DNA of 45,330 bases. Source: Anaerolineales bacterium (GTDB taxonomy: Bacteria > Chloroflexota > Anaerolineae > Anaerolineales > UBA11579). The DNA lies in the NCBI GenBank assembly GCA_020059485.1, contig JAGVCA010000045.1, forward strand, positions 1-45,330. Direction: 5' to 3'. Position numbers and translations under genes: made by a program. The notes below the pieces were generated by a model. It was not told the DNA's origin. It ran no database searches and saw nothing but the letters and a program-made list of their open reading frames with translations. Below are positions 30,444 through 33,056 of the stretch, piece by piece (position 1 is the first letter of the stretch; each line of letters starts with the position of its first letter).

Positions 30444-31469
30444 ATGCCTGAAAAGATATTATTCATTGGCGGGTCAAGGAACCAGACCTCCATGCTGCAT
30501 AAGATTTCCCGCCACCTCGATGAGCAATATGAGTGCTATTTCTCGCCGTATTATGCGGATGGGATCGAAGATCTGGCAGCCAAAACGGGGATCCTCGATG
30601 CGACTGTTCTGGGCGGGAAACACCAGATGGATACGCTAAACTACATACAGGCGAATAACCTGGTGCTGGATTGGCGGGGTGAAGGGCATGATTACGATTT
30701 GGTGGTGACAGCGAGCGACCTGATCGTGCAGCGCAACATCCGCAACAAACGGGTGGTGTTGGTGCAGGAAGGGATTACCGAGCCGGAGATCTGGCTGTTC
30801 CACCTGGTCAGGTGGTTGAAAGGGGCCTATTAACTGGCGAATACGGCTGCAACCGGACTTTCTGATAAATACGATATTTTTTGCGTCGCTTCGCAAGGTT
30901 ACCGCGACCTGTTTGTCCGGAAAGGGGTTAAAGCTGACAAGATCGCTGTGACCGGAATCCCGAACTTCGATCATTTTGAGGCGGTGCTGGAAAATGACTT
31001 TCCGGCAGAGGTGACAGTGCCACCAGCACGTACCCCTCTGCGCGAGACTTTCCGGTATGACAACCGGATCGGGTTCCTGAAGCAGGTCCGGCGGGTGGTG
31101 GGAGACAAGAGCATGATCTTTAAGCTGCATCCACTGGAGAAGCAAGCCCGGACGATCAGGGAGATCCGGAAATATTTTCCGGATGCAGAGATCTATATCG
31201 ATGGCAATATCGACAAAATGATCGCGAATGCGGCGGTGGTGATCACCCAGCAGTCTACCTGCACATTCACCGCGGTGGCCCTGGGCAAGGAGACTTACTC
31301 CTACCTGAACCTTGCGGAACTGAAGCAATTTATGCCGATCCAGAACAACGGGGCCTCAGCCGAACGGATTGCCCGGATCTGTAAAAATGTCCTGCATACG
31401 CCGCTGCCTGTGTTGAAAGCGATCCGGCAAGGATTCCGGTCGCGGCCAAGATGGGAGCAGGACCGGTAG
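30444..31469 (+). pseudogene. Glycan/glycerophosphate-transferase-like gene interrupted by one in-frame TAA
   Basis: The frame from ATG 30444 reads 129 residues to a TAA at 30831-30833, then continues in the same frame with protein-like sequence (LANTAATGLSDKYDIFCVAS) to a stop at 31469. Read through, it would be about 341 residues. The downstream part contains VTGIPNFDHFEAV, MIFKLHPLEKQARTI and ITQQSTCTFTAVALGKETYSY, which resemble the C-terminal domain of CDP-glycerol glycerophosphotransferases and related GT-B-fold enzymes. No shift of frame is needed, so a single base change (or a base-call error) explains the break. There is no start with a good ribosome site directly after the stop. It may be a recent pseudogene, or two fragments; programmed read-through is not supported by any feature I see. 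Confidence 0.75.
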
Positions 31470-32039: not shown

Positions 32040-32420
32040 CTATAATATTTGGATATCGAGTTGATAAATATGTTCTACGAGCGGTGCGATCTCGGGGGCA
32101 AACAGACACTGCCAGATGCGTTCGCTGGTTTGACTGCATTTATGCCAGGTATTGCCGTGATCGAACGAAATTCGGACTTTGAGATCCGGGTTGGCTGGTG
32201 CGCTGCTGTTCAGGGTGAGCGTGACACTTTCCAGACGATCCGGTGAAAGTGGCGAAAGCGCGTATTCATGAGCGAACTCCAAATTCAGACCTGAGGGATT
32301 TTCGATCAGGATCTCTGGCTGGAGGCTGTAAGCATGGCCGGGGATGGCGGAACCGAGCGCAAAAAGCGCTGCTGAAACCACGATCAGTTCGAAGAGATAG
32401 AGGAATACCTTTCGGATCAT
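32040..32420 (-). CDS. Small secreted protein of unknown family, behind the c-di-GMP riboswitch leader
   Basis: This 126-residue protein has a signal peptide (MIRKVFLYLFELIVVSAALF, then ALGSAIPGHAYS with a likely cut after GHA near residue 36). The mature part of about 90 residues looks like a beta-rich domain (SVTLTLNSSAPANPDLKVRI, SFDHGNTWHKCSQTSERIWQC) with two cysteines about 12 residues apart that could form a disulfide. No known family is recognised. The start at 32420 has a GGAAGG-type site about 7-8 bases upstream. It is the first gene after three tandem riboswitch aptamers, so its amount should depend on c-di-GMP. An exported matrix, adhesion or pilus-related role is only a guess from that link. 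Confidence 0.75.
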   Translation of the reverse strand: MIRKVFLYLFELIVVSAALFALGSAIPGHAYSLQPEILIENPSGLNLEFAHEYALSPLSPDRLESVTLTLNSSAPANPDLKVRISFDHGNTWHKCSQTSERIWQCLFAPEIAPLVEHIYQLDIQIL

Positions 32421-32503
32421 CTGACACCTTCCTTTCAAATGGTGCCCAAGAAGATCAGAAAGTCGGGGTAGAACCCACTAGACTTGGTGAAATCGATCTG
32501 ATT

Positions 32504-32583
32504 TCGGCGGCCTGGCAGTCATTGGTGCGGGTACACCTTTAGACCCATGGCTTTGCGTCCCCGGTTTTCACCGGGTTTGCCCT
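32504..32583 (-). promoter_or_regulatory. c-di-GMP-I (GEMM-I) riboswitch aptamer, copy 3 (gene-proximal)
   Basis: On the minus strand it reads GGGCAAACCCGGT-GAAA-ACCGGG, then GACGCAAAGCC, GGGTCTAAAGG and GACTGCCAGGCCGCCGA. These are the GEMM-I hallmarks: a GNRA-capped P2 hairpin, the ACGCAAAGCC joining segment and a CTAAAG tetraloop receptor in P3. G at the position before GCAAACC suits c-di-GMP and not the cGAMP variant. The P3 stem is GGTG/CACC here. Downstream (32421-32503) is a hairpin AAGTC..GGG/CCC..GACTT before the ribosome site, a possible expression platform. Confidence 0.9.
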
Positions 32584-32677
32584 TGTCGTTCCAGATCTTC
32601 TTAGGAATGTATGTAATCGGGCCTGAAATTTCTATGCCCGAGGAGATGAGAAAAAATTGGTTGTACTGAGGATACAT

Positions 32678-32755
32678 TCGGCGGCCTGGCAGTCATAGGC
32701 GAGTGCGCCTTTAGACCCATAGCTTTGCGTCGCCGGCTTTCACCGGGTTTGCCTT
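32678..32755 (-). promoter_or_regulatory. c-di-GMP-I (GEMM-I) riboswitch aptamer, copy 2 (middle)
   Basis: The minus strand reads GGCAAACCCGGT-GAAA-GCCGG, GACGCAAAGC, GGTCTAAAGGCG and CGCCTATGACTGCCAGG. Against copy 3 the P2 closing pair is U-G instead of U-A, and P3 is GGCG/CGCC, so pairing is kept while sequence changes. Between copies 2 and 3 (32584-32677) a TCGGGC/GCCCGA hairpin exists without a clear T-run after it. Confidence 0.9.
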
Positions 32756-32790
32756 TATCGAGTATTCAGTTGTTAATGTTCAAGGTATCC

Positions 32791-32820
32791 AACAGAAAAG
32801 CCTGGTGCAAAGACCAGGCC
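32791..32820 (-). terminator. Intrinsic terminator after riboswitch copy 1
   Basis: On the minus strand GCCTGGT-CTTTGC-ACCAGGC is followed by TTTTCTGTT. Its 5' arm with two bases before it (CGGCCTGG) is an exact 8-base complement of CCAGGCCG in the 3' strand of the upstream aptamer, so aptamer and terminator could compete for pairing partners. Confidence 0.85.
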
Positions 32821-32847
32821 GAGGCGGGATTTCCGTTCAGTCACACT

Positions 32848-32925
32848 TCGGCGGCCTGGCGGTCGTAGGCGGATGTGCCCTTAGACCCATGGCTTTGCGT
32901 CGCCGGCTTTCGCCGGGTATGCCTT
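32848..32925 (-). promoter_or_regulatory. c-di-GMP-I (GEMM-I) riboswitch aptamer, copy 1 (promoter-proximal)
   Basis: The minus strand reads GGCATACCCGGC-GAAA-GCCGG, GACGCAAAGCC, GGGTCTAAGGGC, GCCTACGACCGCCAGGCCG. P2 is closed by C-G and the tetraloop receptor is CTAAG. One base in the otherwise invariant GGCAAACC is changed to T. It is the first aptamer transcribed and the only one with a clear terminator behind it (32791-32820). Confidence 0.88.
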
Positions 32926-32944: not shown

Positions 32945-32973
32945 ACTATAGTCCTATATCCGGGAGGAGGAAA
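32945..32973 (-). promoter_or_regulatory. Candidate promoter of the triple-riboswitch leader
   Basis: On the minus strand TATAGT (32945-32950) lies about 20 bases before the first aptamer; TTTCCT (32968-32973) is 17 bases upstream as a weak -35 box. Confidence 0.5.
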
Positions 32974-33056
32974 TAGGGACTTTCCCTACCTTTTGTTGAG
33001 AAAACCCCGAATTATCATGGATTTGCGATAAAGCAGGCGGGGGTATTGATGTAAGA

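Follow-up and report, generated by a model that had tools for sequence, protein, structure and literature searches.

The window, the whole 45,330-nt stretch of Anaerolineales DNA analysed here, carries on its minus strand a leader with three c-di-GMP-I aptamers, behind which the original prediction had placed a two-gene operon. That operon is present (Table 1). The first gene encodes a 126-aa exported-looking protein, for which no Pfam family was found, and the second, beginning 26 nt beyond it, encodes a 128-aa response-regulator receiver. The intergenic region of the array is shared with divergently transcribed genes, which encode a PAS-rich histidine kinase and a LuxR-type regulator. At the 5′ end of the leader, a putative -10 element gives an expected transcription start at about 32938, just 5′ of aptamer 1, and relatives have TGCTATAGT/TGCTATATT at the matching place before their first aptamer. 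The perfect palindrome just upstream of this promoter is possibly an operator. Elsewhere in the window (30444-31469, plus strand), the open reading frames 30444-30833 and 30948-31469 resemble halves of one gene split by a stop or frameshift; neither had a Pfam match.

Table 1 Features of the triple-aptamer leader and its operon, with the loci of a separate RNA element found in related genomes
Feature	Position	Strand	Basis
Perfect palindrome TAGGGA-N3-TCCCTA	32974..32988	.	sequence
Putative -10 element TATAGT	32945..32950	minus	sequence
c-di-GMP-I aptamer 1	32933-32847	minus	RF01051, 75.1 bits, E 4.6e-13
Aptamer 1 3′ strand CCAGGCCG, predicted antiterminator partner of the terminator left arm	32852..32859	minus	complementarity
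Intrinsic terminator of unit 1, CGGCCUGGU-CUUUG-CACCAGGC-UUUUCU	32821-32794	minus	terminator scan
Aptamer 2 including P1 stem ACUGAAUAC/GUAUccUCAGU	32665..32770	minus	folding, flank pairing
c-di-GMP-I aptamer 2	32763-32677	minus	RF01051, 79.9 bits, E 3.1e-14
AUACAUUC, can pair GAAUGUAU (32679-32672) instead of aptamer 2 P1	32605..32612	minus	8 bp
CCUAAGAAGAUC, 5′ strand of a 12-bp helix with 32456-32445	32594..32605	minus	folding
c-di-GMP-I aptamer 3	32591-32503	minus	RF01051, 82.5 bits; RF03167, 72.5 bits
GAUCUUCUUGGG, partner in the 12-bp helix or 5′ arm of the start-codon hairpin	32445..32456	minus	folding
Predicted hairpin over Shine-Dalgarno (32434-32427) and AUG (32420-32418)	32415..32456	minus	folding
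Gene for 126-aa protein, signal-peptide-like N-terminus	32420-32040	minus	homologues by tandem arrays in G007 and G005
Gene for 128-aa stand-alone receiver	32013-31627	minus	Pfam Response_reg PF00072, E 2.5e-28
~270-nt element, ending at GCCARACTNCCGAAGAG	L034, L035, L038 2612-2866, L051, L052 1062-1315, L079, L081, L083-L087, L089		

The aptamers were identified by cmscan with Rfam 15, and all three copies scored above the RF01051 gathering threshold of 35 bits, which bears out the earlier claim of three tandem c-di-GMP-I aptamers by the very covariance model that had been proposed as its check. Copy 3 is listed by cmscan under the clan member RF03167 (c-di-GMP-I-GGC), an assignment that we rejected because it scores ten bits below RF01051 itself; where the RF03167 consensus has GACGCGAA and that of RF01051 has GACGCAAA, copy 3 has GACGCAAAG. 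The aptamers follow one another with periods of 170 and 174 nt, and a search of the window's genome, an assembly of 2.2 Mb and about 70% completeness, gave no c-di-GMP-I copy beyond these three. Each has a GAAA loop on P2 and a CUAA(A/G)G receptor on P3. The quoted P2 closing pairs (C-G, U-G and U-A) and P3 tips (GGGC/GCCU, GGCG/CGCC and GGUG/CACC) are all found in the sequence, with the small correction that copies 1 and 2 have a C-C mismatch as the outer pair of P2. The copies were aligned with the three of a relative. In this six-row alignment three of 20 pairs, all in P2, are changed on both sides, and 91.7% of the cells are paired, against 18-52% with the partners slid. The covariation originally claimed is thus genuine yet modest, and coming from six rows of 87-nt copies it is supportive rather than strong; the identification rests on the Rfam scores, which support all three aptamers as genuine members of the c-di-GMP-I class.

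Every copy carries G and A at positions 11 and 38 of the RF01051 model, and C at the second C of CCGAA; we take these, from established GEMM structures, to be G20, A47 and C92 in Vc2 numbering. G at position 20 marks binding of c-di-GMP rather than cGAMP; a cGAMP riboswitch (GEMM-Ib), which requires A there, was rejected for all three copies. Given the 13 GGDEF domains encoded in the window's genome, c-di-GMP is probably made by this organism and is a plausible ligand of the array.

Behind aptamer 1 lies an intrinsic terminator (full sequence CGGCCUGGUCUUUGCACCAGGCUUUUCU). Its left arm, CGGCCUGG, complements CCAGGCCG of the aptamer exactly over 8 nt, a match reached by 1% of dinucleotide-shuffled linkers. 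Across the order, most tandem loci have an equivalent terminator behind the first aptamer, the linker there following the design GGCCUGGC...GCCAGGCC plus a U-run. The complement between left arm and aptamer strand occurs likewise in G007 (locus VRUJ01000013.1, Chloroflexi bacterium MohnsGC08_bin188), G005, G008, G009, G012 and G014, and G046 has a compensatory version in which aptamer and terminator are altered together (GCCAAGCC/GGCUUGGC). In many tandem loci a conserved box like CACCUUAAnAAC lies just before the second aptamer, in the window at about 32790-32770 in the linker of units 1 and 2.

When unit 1 was folded without ligand, the antiterminator-forced ensemble was about 2.3 kcal/mol better than the aptamer-forced one (-60.1 vs -57.8). 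The unconstrained fold contained the terminator together with a misfolded aptamer, so thermodynamics alone is no proof of switching. An ON design uses the 3′ strand of the aptamer itself as the left arm of the terminator. Here the left arm pairs with that strand, and the terminator and the folded aptamer can coexist. The same succession of aptamer 3′ strand, complementary left arm and right arm is found in Cd1 of Clostridioides difficile, which is a single aptamer before flagellar genes, whereas here there are three aptamers; in Cd1 the antiterminator takes the aptamer strand, the terminator is compatible with the folded aptamer, and ligand favours the terminator, giving an OFF switch (PMC9262584). 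Since the strand order of unit 1 is that of Cd1 and not that of an ON switch, we predict by analogy that unit 1 acts as an OFF-type transcriptional switch.

No terminator, and none of the unit 1 design, was found by the terminator scan after aptamers 2 and 3; a U-run at about 32656-32651 lacks a GC-rich stem ahead of it. The P1 of aptamer 2 is extended and carries a two-base bulge, and G007 has a P1 of this shape, bulge included, in other letters (CCGAAUAC/GUAauUUCGG). Over all tandem units, the true partners of the 5′ and 3′ flanks paired better than permuted ones (p ~0.02). The alternative pairing of AUACAUUC with GAAUGUAU was equalled by 1.5% of shuffles and may have a switching role; no clear expression platform of aptamer 2 was recognised.

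Further downstream, CCUAAGAAGAUC overlaps the 5′ strand of aptamer 3 P1 (GAUCUG/CAGAUC), and its helix with GAUCUUCUUGGG reaches a length, 12 bp, that 1.8% of shuffles attain. This helix competes for GAUCUUCUUGGG with the hairpin predicted over the start codon, which lies 82 nt beyond aptamer 3 with no terminator between. The z value of the start-codon hairpin was -0.98 at the window locus alone and averaged -1.86 over 13 arrays of the order, with two of the strongest values (family f14) stemming from loci whose second unit carries its own terminator. Hairpins pairing the AUG were found again in most family-f1 relatives. Sequestration of the Shine-Dalgarno sequence as a stand-alone signal was not significant against shuffles at the window locus, and in the comparison with relatives a clear 12-bp helix was seen only in G000, with no clear counterpart in G007. 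In folding of unit 3, the forced-aptamer and free folds were identical, and Shine-Dalgarno accessibility did not change. Given this constant fold at the ribosome-binding site, we treat the translational step as a model and not as a result.

G007 resembles the window locus in having three aptamers (periods 159-164 nt), of which the first is followed by a terminator built alike and the second and third by none of that design, and a homologous exported protein followed by a receiver domain; it differs in that its receiver forms a fusion with a histidine kinase, and the linkers are just 47-57% identical. The exported-protein homologue followed by a receiver-histidine kinase fusion is found in two other genera of the family, behind the triple of G007 and the doublet of G005, and a third genus has a doublet before a receiver and a further aptamer before a sortase-like exported protein. 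Exported-protein and receiver genes thus stand behind arrays in several genera, so the array and such signalling and export genes go together. At L040 (minus strand), L041 (3384-3474) and L042 (3482-3574), an extra c-di-GMP-I aptamer lies between the receiver and sortase-like genes, behind the leader doublet and within one operon. Tandem arrays of the order stand repeatedly before exported sortase-like proteins (L037, L039-L042 and L046-L048; Pfam Sortase, several below the cut-off).

The copies within a genome are 78-85% identical in the window and 87-92% in G007, and copies at the same position in the two loci mostly share 74-82% identity. The original prediction that the copies are not recent duplication noise holds insofar as those of the window differ by 15-22% and are not fresh duplicates; later duplication or homogenisation may have taken place, because copies within one genome are more alike than their counterparts in the nearest triple, a likeness that also kept aptamer sequences from resolving orthology with G007 unit by unit. 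The platform order common to both loci suggests a common plan, which may have come with separate duplication or homogenisation. No copy of the locus was present in the two other genomes of the genus, and no plasmid records resembling the leader were found.

A different RNA emerged from the comparison of neighbourhoods. Five arrays had abutting aptamers with no space for a platform, and all five are instances of a single conserved element, about 270 nt long and consisting of three contiguous GEMM-like (c-di-GMP-I-like) modules, one of them divergent, with a promoter-like -10 at the 5′ end. Its closing helix covaries (UUGCUC/GAGCAA, CCACUC/GAGUGG, GCACUC/GAGUGC and GCGCUC/GAGCGU), and RNAalifold on 12 sequences (mean identity 69%) gave 65 pairs, 39 of them altered on both sides, with 3.9% of cells unpaired. 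A strong terminator follows directly in family f11 and in G011, and a U-rich stretch in the remaining f1 and f8 loci. In nine f11 genomes the element precedes ruvB, and in four other genomes (f1 and f8) it lies beside unrelated, often convergent genes. It is absent as a family from Rfam, where the outer modules are matched merely as single c-di-GMP-I aptamers, and an exact-pattern search did not find it in the window's genome. It may be a stand-alone c-di-GMP-binding RNA or a composite leader.

Three aptamers in series had been called uncommon, and the counts agree. Across 101 neighbourhood genomes, 110 aptamers fell into 85 arrays (64 single, 17 double and four triple), and a 2022 survey counted 12 triplets against 347 doublets (PMC9481103). 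Two of the four triples (G000 and G007) have the period found at the window locus, and a spacing-pattern scan of 400 genomes of the order returned these two only. Across the genome collection the pattern gave 17 stretches, six of which have at least three aptamers by Rfam, including Peptococcaceae, Desulfobulbaceae (two weak copies) and an Acetobacterium with four in a row. In a Clostridia MAG (L065, 2101-2437), four abutting c-di-GMP-I aptamers lie directly before a secreted protein gene, and an Acetobacterium wieringae MAG (L073, 1312-1853) has four at even spacing before a subtilase-like gene. With the Bacillus thuringiensis triple Bc3-5 characterised in 2016 (PMC4759541) and the surveyed triplets (PMC9481103), triples are rare but already known and hence not new; what is new at the window locus is the likely wiring of the array. 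A literature search found no paper naming both a c-di-GMP-I riboswitch and Chloroflexi.

Like the window locus, Bc3-5 has three complete c-di-GMP-I aptamers in one leader before exported or surface protein genes (PMC4759541). It is an ON system with a terminator for each aptamer, whereas here one terminator, of the predicted OFF type, follows unit 1, and the ribosome-binding site directly adjoins the last unit. A pseudo-cooperative triple of complete riboswitches of the Bc3-5 type, in which every aptamer has its own terminator, was rejected, since only aptamer 1 has one here. In its layout the leader resembles bi-mechanism tandems such as SAM-II/SAM-V, with an intrinsic terminator after the first element and the last element placed where it may control translation; it differs in that all of its aptamers are of one class, c-di-GMP-I. 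The survey gives such bi-mechanism systems for SAM only and states that not all tandems were checked (PMC9481103).

Our preferred reading, held with slightly better than even confidence, is a mixed array of the OFF type, the reverse in sign of Bc3-5, that acts on transcription first and probably on translation last. What sequence and comparison show of it are three aptamers, a terminator and a competing complement that is conserved. A single promoter would transcribe all three aptamers in one leader. As long as c-di-GMP is low, the left arm of the terminator would be held by the 3′ strand of aptamer 1 and transcription would go on; at high c-di-GMP, ligand would lock aptamer 1 and release the left arm, and the terminator would form and stop transcription. 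RNAs that escape would then encounter aptamers 2 and 3. A ligand-held P1 of aptamer 3 would free GAUCUUCUUGGG from its 12-bp partner to cover the Shine-Dalgarno sequence and start codon, shutting translation off. The array would work as an OFF switch whose threshold is sharpened, by which the exported and receiver proteins are made only at low c-di-GMP; the steep or graded response suggested earlier, a standard proposal for such arrays, is possible. In this scheme the ligand, the sign, the translational step and any contribution of aptamer 2 are what we infer.

Other readings differ mainly in what they ask of aptamers 2 and 3. That unit 1 alone is effective, as a transcriptional OFF switch, with aptamers 2 and 3 binding ligand but serving as relics, buffers or spacers, fits with unit 1 being the sole unit whose platform matches a known mechanism and with the absence of ligand-dependent change in the folding of unit 3. 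We consider this unlikely, since aptamers 2 and 3 outscore aptamer 1 in Rfam and their cores are intact, the P1 architecture of aptamer 2 is kept in G007 with different letters, and three copies are retained in both genomes. Aptamers 2 and 3 might instead form one composite translational device with one output and perhaps cooperative binding. Their switching helices run end to end (32612-32605 and 32605-32594, one base shared), unit 2 lacks its own terminator, and each pairing is rare in shuffles; yet both chance probabilities are individually modest, G007 offers no convincing counterpart and the alternative folds are close in energy, which makes such a device distinctly improbable. Least probable of all, in our judgement, are three ON switches acting as serial gates at which c-di-GMP relieves termination. 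The sole characterised triple is indeed ON, with c-di-GMP promoting surface-protein expression (PMC4759541), but in unit 1 the left arm follows the aptamer and complements its 3′ strand, the terminator tolerates the folded aptamer, and units 2 and 3 have no terminator built on an aptamer strand.

A more specific form of the mixed OFF array, which we put forward tentatively and consider rather unlikely, would be a homogeneous bi-mechanism array in which unit 1 terminates and units 2 and 3 make up one translational switch through their abutting helices, as an order-wide scheme. Its first element is predicted to govern termination, through the conserved terminator with an aptamer-complementary left arm. 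If it is true, one signal would be read three times, at two levels.

The locus contributes a triple c-di-GMP-I leader that is well defined, and comparison yields both a concrete predicted sign, OFF, and a switching motif that is conserved. Should the last unit prove translational, this would be a single-ligand array acting at two levels, an arrangement listed for SAM only (PMC9481103). The locus would also connect c-di-GMP with a module made up of an exported protein and a receiver.
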